A stretch of DNA of 11,460 nt from an uncultured Synergistales bacterium (lineage in GTDB: Bacteria; Synergistota; Synergistia; Synergistales; Aminobacteriaceae), in assembly GCA_905234205.1 (NCBI GenBank), contig CAJOGG010000019.1, positions 1-11,460 of the forward strand, written 5' to 3'. The notes under the pieces are model-generated. The model saw only the letters and a program-made list of their open reading frames with translations, ran no database searches and was not told the origin of the DNA. This document shows, piece after piece, positions 3,173 through 9,337 of this stretch; position 1 is the first letter of the stretch; each line of letters begins with the position of its first letter. Made by a program: the position numbers and the translations under genes.

Positions 3173-3234
3173 AGAATTATATAACGCAATGCAGTCCCCG
3201 TTAAATTGACAGGGGGATTTTGTAATGACTCTCC

Positions 3235-3262
3235 TTGAAACTAGATCGTTAAATGCTATAAT
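3235..3262 (+). promoter_or_regulatory. Promoter of the AIPR gene
   Basis: TTGAAA (3235-3240), 16-base spacer, perfect TATAAT (3257-3262) with TGC directly upstream (extended -10). Expected transcript start is near 3269, which rules out the upstream ATG at 3225 as the translation start and leaves ATG 3312. Confidence 0.75.
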
Positions 3263-3311
3263 TCTAGCAACAATCAATCATTACCATTACCACAAAGGAA
3301 CTATATTAATT

Positions 3312-5105
3312 ATGCCAGCAACCACGAAAGACTATCTATATATCGAGAGCAAAATTAACTCGTTAAAGAGCAAGTATGTATTTCTACGAGACAAGCCGGA
3401 CTCTTATGTTTTCTCTGCCATATGTGTGATTTATAGCTTGTACAAGGAGCCAGATAATATTAGTGAAGATGATTTGAAGAACATCATAACGGATCAAGCT
3501 TATGATGGTGGCGTGGATATGCTATTAACTGATCCGCTGTCAGGTAGTGATGATTTAGTTATGTGTCAGTCTAAATTTTACAGGACTATCAGCTACGAAG
3601 AAGTGAAAAACGCTTTAACCAAAATGGCAGAGTTCTATATTAATGTTAGCGACACAAAATATGAAAACGTTAATGATAAAGTTGTTAGCAGATTTATGCA
3701 GCTTAAAACCAAAATAGGTGACGAATCCAAGGTAAGATTTATATTTTACACGAGCGCATCTCAAAATAAAATTAGCACAAAACGCCTTCGTGAGAACTTC
3801 ATGAAAAAGTTCCCTGATAGTTCTAACGTTGAACTTGTAGTTATGTTTGCTGCTGACATAGTGAACGAAATCAAGGAAACTGAAACTAGATGTCCCATTG
3901 TTGAAGCTGGAGTGTTGCAAATTGATCGCAATGGAAATGTTCTTCGATACAAAGAAGAAGCTATAATCGTCAATGTGTCTGCATGTTCTGTAAAAAAGTT
4001 GTATGCCATATATGGACAACATTTGCTTTCAAAAAATTTACGTTATCATATAAGAAGTGGCCGCAAAATCGATGACGCCATCAAGGCAACTATAAATACT
4101 AGGCCGGAATTATTCTGGATGATGAACAACGGAATCACGATATTTTGTGACTCATTTACAGTTAATCGGAAAGAAGTTAATCTGACAAATTTTTCTGTAA
4201 TAAACGGCGGCCAAACAGTTTATGAACTCTACAAGAACACGAATGTCAACGCTGATAATGATTTCTATCTTCCCTGCAAAATTATCCGAGCACGAGGTAA
4301 CAATGAGAAGGAAAAAAATGATTACGGTTTGGAAATCTCGATAGCGGCTAACTGGCAAAAACCTATAAAGGATTTCGATTTGAGGGCTAATTCCTACGAA
4401 CAAGTGCTTTTTGCGCGTGTTATGCGTGAGGTTGGAATCTTTTACCAGACTAAACGAGGCGAAACCGTGCCAAGAGAATATACAGCAAAATATTTGCATA
4501 CAGACCTTGCTGAAGTTGGTAAACTGGGACTTTGTGCAATATTACAACTTCCCGGAACGGCACGTAACAAACCATCTGTGGCATACGACGACAATCACAA
4601 CTTTTATGAGACAATTTTTAACACTAATCAGACTCAAGTAGCAAACATATGCAGGGAACTCTTGTACATAGATTACCATTTCGATACGTTCATTAAGAGC
4701 TATAAGAAGGAAAAATCTAATGATATTGCACTTAACGCGAGAACTATGTGTATAGCCTTTGTTGCTCTTGCTGCAAGGTATCATCAAGGAAACATAACCG
4801 ATAATGATATTCACAAGTTGGGACAAAACAATAATGCTTTACGCGAAATTTCAGGAAACTTGGGCGCAATAAAATCTATTCTTCCTGTAAAGTTGTACAC
4901 CGAAAAATATGATTCAGCAGTTGACGAATTATTCAGATTGATAATCAACAATGGAGCAATGATGTATTCTGGCGCAAAATACAATAACAACACCTTAACT
5001 GCTACTAACTTTCTAAAATCAGATAAAAGCTATTACTTTATTCTCAGTAATCGATGGGAAGAACTCAAAATCGGTATTAATAACTTATTTAGAGAACTAA
5101 ACTAG
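3312..5105 (+). CDS. AIPR-family protein with predicted nuclease motif (candidate phage defence)
   Basis: A 597-residue protein. The middle matches the AIPR family (named for abortive-infection phage-resistance proteins): a KNLR segment at about 241-244, then PELFWMMNNGITIF around 265-278, and FSVINGGQT at 294-302. The N-terminal 200 residues contain DGGVD at 65-69, a strand, then CQSK at 85-88. That is a D...QxK arrangement like the restriction-endonuclease (PD-(D/E)xK/Mrr-like) fold, so nucleic-acid cleavage is plausible. The reading is by eye. No signal peptide or membrane segment is seen. ATG 3312 is chosen because a strong promoter lies between it and the in-frame ATG at 3225; AAAGGA at 3294-3299 sits 12 bases before. 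It stands alone between two minus-strand genes, with its own promoter and terminator. It is AT-richer than they are (30-40% G+C in sampled blocks against 47-48%), which suits horizontal acquisition. Confidence 0.82.
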   Translation: MPATTKDYLYIESKINSLKSKYVFLRDKPDSYVFSAICVIYSLYKEPDNISEDDLKNIITDQAYDGGVDMLLTDPLSGSDDLVMCQSKFYRTISYEEVKNALTKMAEFYINVSDTKYENVNDKVVSRFMQLKTKIGDESKVRFIFYTSASQNKISTKRLRENFMKKFPDSSNVELVVMFAADIVNEIKETETRCPIVEAGVLQIDRNGNVLRYKEEAIIVNVSACSVKKLYAIYGQHLLSKNLRYHIRSGRKIDDAIKATINTRPELFWMMNNGITIFCDSFTVNRKEVNLTNFSVINGGQTVYELYKNTNVNADNDFYLPCKIIRARGNNEKEKNDYGLEISIAANWQKPIKDFDLRANSYEQVLFARVMREVGIFYQTKRGETVPREYTAKYLHTDLAEVGKLGLCAILQLPGTARNKPSVAYDDNHNFYETIFNTNQTQVANICRELLYIDYHFDTFIKSYKKEKSNDIALNARTMCIAFVALAARYHQGNITDNDIHKLGQNNNALREISGNLGAIKSILPVKLYTEKYDSAVDELFRLIINNGAMMYSGAKYNNNTLTATNFLKSDKSYYFILSNRWEELKIGINNLFRELN

Positions 5106-6958: not shown

Positions 6959-6988
6959 TTGCGTTTTTTTTTTTTTTTTTTGTATACT
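6959..6988 (+). promoter_or_regulatory. Candidate promoter of the RiPP cassette with an all-T spacer
   Basis: TATACT (6983-6988) is a good -10 box. TTGCGT (6959-6964) is a weak -35 at 18 bases. The spacer is 17 T plus one G. Transcription would start near 6995, leaving a leader of about 44 bases before the ATG at 7039. The rest of the 6845-7038 gap shows no gene or other clear signal. Confidence 0.5.
6964..6981 (+). repeat. Homopolymer of 18 T
   Basis: Uninterrupted run of 18 T between the possible -35 and -10 boxes upstream of the RiPP precursor. No hairpin abuts it, so it is not a normal terminator. Homopolymers of this length are prone to slippage and also to sequencing error. Confidence 0.9.
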
Positions 6989-7038
6989 TTGCACAACCTA
7001 AATTAACAGCCGGAGGGCAGAAAGGATAAAATACAACG

Positions 7039-7224
7039 ATGAAGTTATTATTTAACGTTTTTGATTCGGGAAATAACACATTCGGCAAATCTCCCGCCGA
7101 CGTATCACAGGACTCTCTTGTATCGTACAGCAGCTGCAGAGGTTGGTCTAGGATACCTTTGTTCAGGACTTTCAGTAGTTGCAGGGGCTGGTCAAGAATC
7201 CCGAATTACGCGCTTTCATATTGA
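7039..7224 (+). CDS. RiPP precursor peptide with two SSCRGWSRIP core repeats
   Basis: A 61-residue peptide, ATG 7039, with AAAGGA at 7021-7026, 12 bases upstream. Residues 1-29 look like a leader (MKLLFNVFDSG, then a Gly/Asn and Asp/Ser-containing stretch). The rest holds two copies of SSCRGWSRIP at 31-40 and 46-55, in a 15-residue period. Each is preceded by an aromatic residue (Y30, F45) and followed two positions later by another (F42, Y57); the peptide ends in Tyr. Eight of ten codons differ between the copies and every change is synonymous, which shows selection on the peptide. The gene directly downstream is a radical SAM/SPASM enzyme. Precursor plus maturase is the usual RiPP layout. 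No double-glycine export site, transporter or protease gene is seen. Cys, Trp and Arg in each repeat are candidate sites for thioether or carbon-carbon crosslinks; which one is made is unknown. I do not recognise a named family. Confidence 0.82.
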   Translation: MKLLFNVFDSGNNTFGKSPADVSQDSLVSYSSCRGWSRIPLFRTFSSCRGWSRIPNYALSY

Positions 7225-7234
7225 CACATATAGC

Positions 7235-7294
7235 ATAAGTAAATACGAATTCATTAGAGCAGATTGGGCGAGAGTCTGACTGCTCTTTACTTAT
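7235..7294 (+). promoter_or_regulatory. Intercistronic RNA hairpin between precursor and maturase
   Basis: Outer 9-bp perfect stem ATAAGTAAA (7235-7243) with TTTACTTAT (7286-7294), and inner 6-bp stem GAGCAG (7257-7262) with CTGCTC (7280-7285), separated by a one-sided 13-base bulge. No T run follows, so it is not a classical terminator. It could protect the precursor message or reduce read-through into the maturase gene. Confidence 0.5.
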
Positions 7295-7324
7295 ATCATA
7301 ATACAAGAAGGGATAGTCTTAACT

Positions 7325-8602
7325 GTGAGCACGTTATTATACCCACCGTATCTTCAATGGGAAGTCGTATCTGAATGTAACCACAAGTGCATTCATTGCT
7401 ATAATTACTGGCGCGCAAGTAACATTGACGTCGTAAAACATTCTGACTTTAACGCTATAACCGACAAAATCATAGCAAGAAAACCTGTCTATGTTGCCAT
7501 AACGGGTGGAGAACCTCTACTGGTGTTTGACGAAATTAAGCCATGTATCTCAAGAATGATTGAGGCGGGAATAAGAATTTCTATATCGTCAAACGGGACA
7601 TTGATAACGGAGGAGATAGCAAATTTTTACGAACGGAATAATATTGACACGGTTATATCGTTCCCCTCAATAGACCCTGAAATTTGCGATAAAGTTTGCA
7701 ATTCTGAAGGTGTAGTTCATAAGTTAGAGGGCAAGCTAGAAATTTTGAAGCGTCATAAGATTCCTGTTACCATTAACATCGTTCTCACTAAATTAAATCT
7801 CCCGACATTGTACGACACGTTAATAGCGATAAAGCAATGGGGATTCACAGCACGAGTTGGCATTGCCCAGCGACCAATTAATGCTTCTGAAGAGTATATC
7901 AAGTACGAACTTGATCGAAATGATTTCAGGCACATAGTGAAAGAATGTATAAGAGCCAAGCGTGAATTAATGCTTGACGTTGATTTCTCGGTGTGTGTTC
8001 CTGATTGCGCGTTTGATTCCGAAGAGGAATATCTCGAGATTGATAAGGGGGACTGTTACGCCGGAACTATAGCTTACAGCATAGGCACTGACGGATCAGT
8101 AAAAGCCTGCCAGTGTGATATAAAGACGTACGGAAATATTTTGCGTGATGATTTTGAAGCCATATATGAGAAAATGTCAGAATGGCGAAATGGTGGAATG
8201 ATCCCTTCAGAATGTGAACACTGCAACAGAGTCTATACATGCCGTGGCGGTTGTAGAGTGGAAGCGTTTGCCTACGATGGAGACAGAAGGACTCTCCCGA
8301 CGTTTGCTAATCTTGAGAACATACCTGTGAATTATGTTAAGCCGATAGAAATTATTAACTTAGCTGATGATTCTGAATTTGAAGTTTCTCCGCACGCAAA
8401 ATTTTTGAAGGATAAAGAATGTTATCGAGTCTCTGTGGGGATTGTTGCAGTTCATCTGACTAATGAGTTTGCCCAATGGCTGAAGAATAATCCGTGTTTC
8501 ACATTTAAAGAGCTAGCAAAAATCTCACATATACAACATGAAGAACTCAAGTTAATTCTAAACATGCTCATCAAAAACACGATCATTAACATTGTGCGAT
8601 AA
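7325..8602 (+). CDS. Radical SAM/SPASM peptide maturase with C-terminal RRE-like domain
   Basis: A 425-residue enzyme predicted to modify the adjacent precursor. Radical SAM core: CxxxCxxC at C18, C22, C25 for the SAM-binding 4Fe-4S cluster, and GGEP at 61-64. SPASM domain: C244-x12-G257-x4-C262 and C297-x2-C300-x5-C306-x3-C310, the full pattern for auxiliary clusters. Residues about 354-424 (SPHAKFLKDKECYRVS, then HLTNEFAQWL, a FTFKELAKI helix and a final helix) look like a PqqD-type RiPP recognition element fused at the C terminus. That part is by-eye fold reading. GTG start at 7325, with AAGGGA at 7308-7313, 11 bases upstream. It lies 100 bases after the precursor stop, with a hairpin between. 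Probably co-transcribed with the precursor. It is AT-rich (30-37% in sampled blocks). The reaction type, thioether or C-C crosslink, cannot be told. Confidence 0.9.
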   Translation: MSTLLYPPYLQWEVVSECNHKCIHCYNYWRASNIDVVKHSDFNAITDKIIARKPVYVAITGGEPLLVFDEIKPCISRMIEAGIRISISSNGTLITEEIANFYERNNIDTVISFPSIDPEICDKVCNSEGVVHKLEGKLEILKRHKIPVTINIVLTKLNLPTLYDTLIAIKQWGFTARVGIAQRPINASEEYIKYELDRNDFRHIVKECIRAKRELMLDVDFSVCVPDCAFDSEEEYLEIDKGDCYAGTIAYSIGTDGSVKACQCDIKTYGNILRDDFEAIYEKMSEWRNGGMIPSECEHCNRVYTCRGGCRVEAFAYDGDRRTLPTFANLENIPVNYVKPIEIINLADDSEFEVSPHAKFLKDKECYRVSVGIVAVHLTNEFAQWLKNNPCFTFKELAKISHIQHEELKLILNMLIKNTIINIVR

Positions 8603-8624: not shown

Positions 8625-8654
8625 TTGCCAAAACTCAAAGCATCATGCTATTAT
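8625..8654 (+). promoter_or_regulatory. Promoter of the DUF4230-type gene
   Basis: TTGCCA (8625-8630), 18-base spacer, TATTAT (8649-8654) with TGC directly before it (extended -10). Expected start near 8661. It makes the in-frame ATG at 8645 untranscribed. Confidence 0.65.
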
Positions 8655-8689
8655 CTGACAAGTTAATATTTAATCAGGAGGAAAAAATT

Positions 8690-9337
8690 TTGGCAGCTTC
8701 CATCGTAATTGTATTCGCGTTAATGATCTCGGTAGTGTTAAACGTTTTGTTGTTCATGCGCAAGAAAGCCAATCCGAATCATTCAATCAGGTCCACAATC
8801 TTATCCGGCATTAAAAGCGTCAGTGAGCTAGCAACTGTTAGAGGACAATTTCAATCAATCGTAACTTTTTCGGACGGCGTAAAAATTCCTTGGCTCGATG
8901 TAAATTTCCCGGGCACTACTCGCAAATTCATGTTGAAGTATTATGGAACTATAGTTTGTGGTTGCGATTTATCTAAAGCCCAAGTATCTGAACGTTTTGA
9001 CGTGAACCGAGTCAGAATCACTCTCCCTCACAGCAAAATTCTTGACGTGTACGCCGACGTAAATAGCTTTGAAGTTTACGACCAGAGCGCGGGAATCTTC
9101 ACACGCGTGAAGCTTGAGGACCAGAACAGAGAAGTAAACGCTGACTTAGAAAAAGTTAAAGCACATGAATTACAGAACGGAATACTTGAACAATCGGACA
9201 ACAACGTGCGAAAAATCTTAACGTCCGTAGTAGCCTCAACAGGAATGGAAGCGGAAATTTTATTCACCGACGACGAAACTTTAGCATTGATCGAAAATTC
9301 TGCCGGCACTCTTCAGCTTGAAGCGCAGGCTATGTGA
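8690..9337 (+). CDS. DUF4230-type membrane-anchored protein
   Basis: A 215-residue protein of unknown function. Residues 4-23 form a single N-terminal transmembrane helix followed by RKK, so the rest may face either side; the positive residues favour an N-out or anchor arrangement. The body fits the DUF4230 pattern as I remember it: a SVSELATVRGQFQSIV segment near 43-58, a GTIVCGCDLS turn near 86, and a beta-rich stretch ending IFTRVKL. No catalytic motif is visible. Start is TTG 8690, with AGGAGG at 8676-8681 eight bases upstream. The ATG at 8645 lies within the promoter. No terminator is seen before rpsB, and the probable rpsB promoter overlaps its stop codon, so read-through into the ribosomal genes is possible. 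Confidence 0.72.
   Translation: MAASIVIVFALMISVVLNVLLFMRKKANPNHSIRSTILSGIKSVSELATVRGQFQSIVTFSDGVKIPWLDVNFPGTTRKFMLKYYGTIVCGCDLSKAQVSERFDVNRVRITLPHSKILDVYADVNSFEVYDQSAGIFTRVKLEDQNREVNADLEKVKAHELQNGILEQSDNNVRKILTSVVASTGMEAEILFTDDETLALIENSAGTLQLEAQAM

Follow-up and report, generated by a model that had tools for sequence, protein, structure and literature searches.

A repeated SCRGW-type peptide and its neighbouring radical SAM/SPASM enzyme as a candidate RiPP system

A repeat peptide beside a radical SAM/SPASM enzyme

Does a short peptide that carries the same ten residues twice, encoded just ahead of a radical SAM/SPASM enzyme, belong to a ribosomally made and enzymatically modified product (RiPP), and what would the enzyme make of it? 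We addressed this question in an 11,460-nucleotide stretch of DNA from an uncultured Synergistales bacterium, referred to as the window, whose numbering is used unless another locus is named. The precursor gene (7039-7224, forward strand), delimited by its ORF, alignment and profile searches, encodes 61 residues: a leader starting MKLLFNVF, with a hydrophobic N-terminal [L/V]-x-F-[N/D]-V stretch, and two copies of SSCRGWSRIP (7129-7158 and 7174-7203, forward strand) with a period of 15 residues, as the original prediction had described. At eight of the ten positions the two copies use different codons, and every change is silent; in a simulation with 8 random substitutions per trial, all were silent in 2 of 500,000 trials. 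Because all 8 differences are silent, we consider the repeat to have been selected as a peptide. The 61-residue precursor matched no family of Pfam or NCBIfam at E values up to 1. The enzyme gene (7325-8602) follows on the same strand after 100 bases, so the peptide indeed lies directly before it.

The enzyme has 425 residues and a GTG start. It scored 59.9 bits with Pfam Radical_SAM (cut-off 29.5), and its CX3CX2C motif (C18, C22, C25) was present in all 19 aligned maturases. The structure model (pLDDT 89.5) gave TIM-barrel fold matches, and its PDB matches were anSME, SkfB, TigE, SuiB and CteB. The seven-Cys SPASM motif consists of CX9-15GX4C, CX2CX5CX3C and a final C. Six of these seven Cys were found in the window maturase, as CX12GX4C (C244, G257, C262) and CX2CX5CX3C (C297, C300, C306, C310); the last one is absent, with no Cys between residues 311 and 365, and the Pfam SPASM score of 19.0 bits lies below the 21.5 cut-off. 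Thus, of the complete radical SAM and SPASM patterns claimed at first, the radical SAM part stands, and the SPASM part is not quite complete. C224 and C264 are possible extra cluster ligands: C264, beside the cluster residue C262, was seen in the close family only, where sister rows read CPR, and some relatives lack C224.

The C-terminus (residues 346-425; 8360-8599, forward strand), overlooked in the original prediction, carries in the structural model an RRE-like (PqqD-like) domain. Modelled separately (pLDDT 95.3), it shows beta strands followed by three helices, in agreement with RRE structures, and its best PDB matches were RRE domains of RiPP enzymes; leader binding by this domain is a prediction. 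We rejected membership of the enzyme in any named maturase family. Among the 25 best NCBIfam rows no named maturase model reached its cut-off, with a top score of 82 bits against 400, and YhhB, a cyclophane-forming model, was absent from these rows. The NCBIfam picture was the same for 35 A1 members, with cut-offs taken from member 1 only.

Upstream of the precursor, a stretch on the forward strand (6959-6988) is a putative promoter, recognized in the sequence and by alignment with a related locus (L004, see below). It consists of TTGCGT (6959-6964), a run of 18 T (6964-6981) and TATACT (6983-6988). The order is alike in the two loci: TTGC, a T run (18 in the window and 12 in L004), GTATACT and then GGGCAGAAAGGA before the start. 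A run of 14 T with TATACT within 5 bases occurs at a single place in the window's own genome. The length of the T run between the promoter hexamers could vary expression, assembled homopolymers being unsure in length. The purine-rich ribosome-binding stretch GGAGGGCAGAAAGGA (7012-7026, forward strand) includes the part that is identical in L004. Between the precursor and the maturase, folding and the L004 alignment revealed a hairpin (7256-7286, forward strand; -16.4 kcal/mol, z -3.3) followed by a short T-rich stretch; its L004 equivalent, partly different in sequence, folds at -22.6 kcal/mol (z -5.3). The hairpin is perhaps a leaky terminator that keeps the enzyme below the precursor. A promoter and terminator consensus scan listed neither the 6959-6988 stretch nor the hairpin, and Rfam gave no match in the window at gathering score.

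Relatives of the peptide and of the enzyme

We scanned 84,980 species genomes for the maturase and obtained 19 loci, one of which (L022), with only 37 residues matched, was excluded from every count. Two are close relatives, in a Fretibacterium MAG (L004, 74% identity) and a Clostridia MAG (L005, 59%), and sixteen are distant (L006-L021, 25-37%). A check of the short ORFs beside homologous maturases, the test set out in the original prediction, came out in its favour at both named close loci: each, found via the enzyme and not via the motif, has upstream of the maturase, in the same orientation, a peptide whose start and core match. The L004 precursor reads MKLLFDV...SYNSCRGWAKISLFVL, and that of L005, identical to peptide cluster P0121, reads MKKLICNVFDD...MSSCRGWSRI...MSSCRGWCKI...

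A maturase protein search was taken to the best 120 of 1979 matches, in which the first 38 clusters, at least 48% identical, are called close and the other 82, mostly 30-40% identical, distant. Two profile searches seeded with sequences containing SCRGW gave 5 and then 23 peptide clusters. Ten of the 23 (P0009, P0010, P0015, P0017, P0020, P0021, P0022, P0025, P0029 and P0030) have a longest contig exactly as long as that of a close maturase cluster among these best 120, and none pairs likewise with the 82 distant clusters; we infer that longest contigs of equal size are one and the same contig. The other 13 have no such contig partner among the listed maturases, and they include P0121, which yet adjoins the maturase in L005. 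In a tree of 44 rows, the 18 rows of SCRGW-type maturases grouped together as a single, fully supported clade. The nearest sister rows are P0039 and P0041; a search for the sister group P0041 in 391 genomes from the class that includes genome G081 matched only the known maturase of G081 itself.

The cassette is rare: the family has it in 2 of 81 genomes, the phylum in 2 of 185 and, of 301 genomes sampled from the family to which the Clostridia genome with L005 belongs, 1 carries it. Ten candidate stretches on viral contigs included no relative, and plasmid records gave no tblastn match at 1e-20. At 19 loci besides the window's own, where flanks were short, another window gene (rpsB) was found only in L044. 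As a control, we searched the 81 family genomes with a DNA pattern for SCRGWxxI and with the reversed pattern. The forward pattern matched at 11 places in nine genomes; three of these lie in the window's precursor and in that of genome G059, and the other 8, in 7 other family genomes, equal the 8 found with the reversed control.

The 23 clusters (including P0121 of L005), the window and L004 make up 25 precursors with 43 cores. All 43 share the conserved core S-C-R-G-W-[S/C/A]-[K/R]-I, an invariance that is partly built in because the searches were seeded with SCRGW sequences. The residue after Trp is S in 28, C in 13 and A in 2 cores, and the next is K in 37 and R in 6, giving W-S-K 22 times, W-C-K 13 times, W-S-R 6 times and W-A-K twice; the residue before Gly-Trp is always Arg and never Lys. 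The motif first proposed, an aromatic residue before SSCRGWSRIP, was too wide at both ends. Among the 43 cores, the position three before Cys holds M in 21, L in 9, V in 7, Y in 3, F in 2 and I in 1, so that aromatics are exceptional, and only 4 cores have Pro after Ile. Two cores were found in 18 of the 25 precursors, sixteen of them with a spacing of 17, one with 16 and the window precursor with 15, and a single core in the other 7. One copy therefore appears to suffice, and these sequence counts fit the earlier suggestion that each repeat is one core. In the main texts of open-licence PubMed Central papers, a search for the SCRGW-type motif returned none on such peptides; the matches were unrelated by title, one of them concerning MHC peptides.

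These computational results show a real peptide that is under selection and goes together with this enzyme clade, and an enzyme with the architecture of a RiPP maturase. As in RiPP systems, a short precursor gene adjoins a modifying enzyme and the two are kept together in relatives, and a conserved core (43 of 43, from the seeded searches) is joined to an alignable leader, with an RRE-like fold predicted to bind it.

A different kind of peptide accompanies the distant enzymes. At 12 of the 16 distant maturases (L006, L007, L009, L010, L012, L014-L019 and L021), a Cys-rich short peptide starts after the maturase, within 52 bases of its stop, as counted by at least 4 Cys, fewer than 110 residues and a start near the maturase stop, the last part chosen after the list had been seen; by this definition L008, L011, L013 and L020, 4 of the 16, have none. 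These peptides lie, for instance, at 6311-6472 in L006, 6306-6434 in L010 and 1732-1881 in L007, and the sequence ...LACYCHCACACHV occurs in L010, L012 and L021. The MAGs in which they occur are of Patescibacteria, Clostridia and Deltaproteobacteria, and several of the peptides contain CxC runs such as CYCHCACACH. NCBIfam gave no match for the four of them that were tested with the distant maturases, and they look like a separate RiPP family. The peptides of L006, L007 and L009 begin FFVNV or FFVNP, which resembles LLFNVF in the window family, and SCRGW was absent within 900 bases upstream and 1200 downstream of the 16 distant maturases. Because some starts are alike and SCRGW is missing there, the leader-binding part may have been kept while the core changed across the wider maturase family.

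Candidate crosslinks

The locus is likely a two-gene RiPP system, in which a radical SAM/SPASM enzyme would crosslink each core of a leader-plus-cores peptide. The most plausible reading is a new RiPP family in which each precursor carries one core or two and the enzyme probably ties each repeat copy into a small ring. In the proposed mechanism, the fused C-terminal RRE-like domain would hold the leader of the precursor while the radical SAM/SPASM enzyme installs one crosslink per S-C-R-G-W-[S/C/A]-[K/R]-I core. The bond would be a C-C link from the Trp indole to the C-beta of the Lys/Arg at position i+2, forming a three-residue cyclophane with a loss of about 2 Da per core. As the cassette has neither protease nor exporter, release of the product is proposed to occur by ordinary cell proteases.

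By analogy, the likeliest bond is a Trp-to-Lys/Arg cyclophane of the i,i+2 type within W-x-[K/R], a tentative choice to which we give somewhat less than an even chance. We favour it because W-x-[K/R] is the substrate pattern of i,i+2 Trp cyclophanes, with precedents in DarE and XncB. W-S-K is the tripeptide crosslinked in darobactin. A darobactin study describes a C6(Trp3)-Cbeta(Lys5) link made by DarE and reports that a minimal cluster of precursor and one radical SAM enzyme is sufficient (PMC9055067); a C6(Trp)-Cbeta(Arg) link is described for XncB (PMC11002830). The aromatic-x-x core of triceptides is found as W-[S/C/A]-[K/R] in 43 of 43 cores, and on the enzyme side, where a known cyclophane-forming family would be expected, no NCBIfam maturase model came to its cut-off among the 25 rows shown for the window protein. 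A plain W-x-[K/R] link leaves unexplained that Cys is as invariant as Trp and that Arg is never Lys. The Trp-Lys/Arg link is further weakened by the more distant peptides, which have Cys, not Trp, in common.

The main rival, which we rate as possible if rather unlikely, is a Cys thioether in each core, resembling those of sactipeptides or ranthipeptides, from the invariant Cys to a nearby backbone or side-chain carbon, for example of Arg, Trp or Lys/Arg. Besides the Cys present in all 43 cores, the Cys-rich short peptides at 12 of 16 distant maturases make Cys the shared residue of the wider family, and without the last SPASM Cys a cluster may have a free position. For SkfB, a cluster with three Cys ligands is described that keeps a site free for the substrate (PMC8326336). 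However, a thioether would leave the invariant G-W and [K/R]-I unaccounted for, and the PapB ranthipeptide maturase model gave only 65.4 bits against a cut-off of 340, which places the enzyme outside the PapB family. Moreover, L005 has a chance Cys-bearing ORF at the same place as the Cys-rich peptides.

An Arg-Trp crosslink in R-G-W, a counterpart of the Arg-Tyr bond in ryptides, is improbable, as is a fused bicycle R-G-W-S-K with both links on Trp, comparable to darobactin W-N-W-S-K. The ryptide motif is R-G-Y. R-G-W is invariant in 43 of 43 cores with Arg never replaced by Lys, but such an Arg could serve binding only, and we know of no Arg-Trp link made by a radical SAM enzyme. An Arg-Tyr crosslink is described for the RRR family (PMC13361665), and both darobactin rings are given as the work of one enzyme in the darobactin study cited above (PMC9055067). 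An extended form of this idea, a long shot in our judgement, is that one C-terminal-RRE enzyme makes a fused Trp-centred polycycle per core, with Arg (i-2), Lys/Arg (i+2) and perhaps Cys on the same indole; the RiPP class would then have arisen from a lineage of Cys-rich-peptide maturases whose substrate changed to a repeated SCRGWSKI core.

Equally doubtful is a change of the core other than a crosslink, such as epimerisation or dehydrogenation, or a role of the peptide as raw material of a redox cofactor like PQQ or mycofactocin. Against the mycofactocin maturase model the enzyme does reach 79 bits, and against PqqE 39.5, as many SPASM enzymes do, but both values are far under the cut-offs of 265 and 381, and a cofactor pathway agrees poorly with two cores per precursor and with no further enzyme beside the cassette. 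A peptide ORF that arose by chance, beside a maturase with another substrate, has a negligible probability and is rejected: short ORFs are common and the SCRGWxxI matches in the 7 other family genomes did not exceed the reversed control, but the silent divergence of the repeats, the leader and core conserved across 25 precursors and the position beside the enzyme in relatives all argue against it.

Likeness to known systems

The Trp-Lys/Arg cyclophane system proposed here resembles triceptides (XncB, OscB, MscB, YhhB) in its SPASM radical SAM enzyme, its aromatic-x-x core with a Trp-x-Arg precedent and the suggested i,i+2 link. It differs from them in an invariant S-C-R-G before Trp, a C-terminal RRE-like domain, NCBIfam scores below every such cut-off and a bond that is a proposal. 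With darobactin (DarA/DarE) it shares the sufficiency of two genes, the W-S-K tripeptide and a single radical SAM enzyme, whereas the window core has no second Trp two residues before, is repeated, and has no DarBCD-like exporter in sight beside the cassette. Ryptides (RRR family) and other streptococcal RaS-RiPPs likewise combine a peptide and a radical SAM enzyme with an Arg-aromatic pair in the core; by their published description, Trp here takes the place of Tyr, and the cassette is without an Rgg/SHP regulator or a separate RRE gene.

Sactipeptides and ranthipeptides (SkfB, CteB, PapB) also have SPASM or twitch maturases with an RRE and Cys in the core, and the distant kin of the window enzyme have Cys-rich peptides. 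In contrast to them, each core here has one Cys, sometimes two, inside a fixed RGW[S/C/A][K/R]I, and the RRE-like domain is C-terminal, whereas it is N-terminal in SkfB and CteB. Tandem identical motifs in one precursor are known from the repeat-core radical SAM RiPPs of TvgA/TvgB, which differ by TVGG repeats, free of Trp and Cys, and by cyclopropylglycine. A study that mapped SPASM enzymes in 2022 described 22 unexplored RiPP pathways and repeat-core peptides, so further families of this kind are to be expected (PMC9062424). New in the window family are a core unreported within the open-licence PubMed Central scope, a C-terminal RRE-like domain and a putative substrate switch within the family.

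The pair is compact and ready for expression, and nature supplies 25 variants of the precursor, some with one core and some with two. With C, R, G, W and I invariant around W-x-[K/R], three known crosslink chemistries can be compared in one eight-residue core. In the wider maturase family the same architecture is also seen with two unlike putative substrates, SCRGW repeats upstream and Cys-rich peptides downstream, which would allow a change of substrate with a kept leader-binding domain to be probed.

Other genes were seen near the cassette. An AIPR-domain protein (3225-5105, forward strand), which scored 102 bits as PADLOC AbiU, is likely an abortive-infection defence gene. The downstream gene for a DUF4230 protein (8645-9337, forward strand) is present in 41 of 43 genus genomes, and some genus copies have an in-frame stop in the matched stretch.
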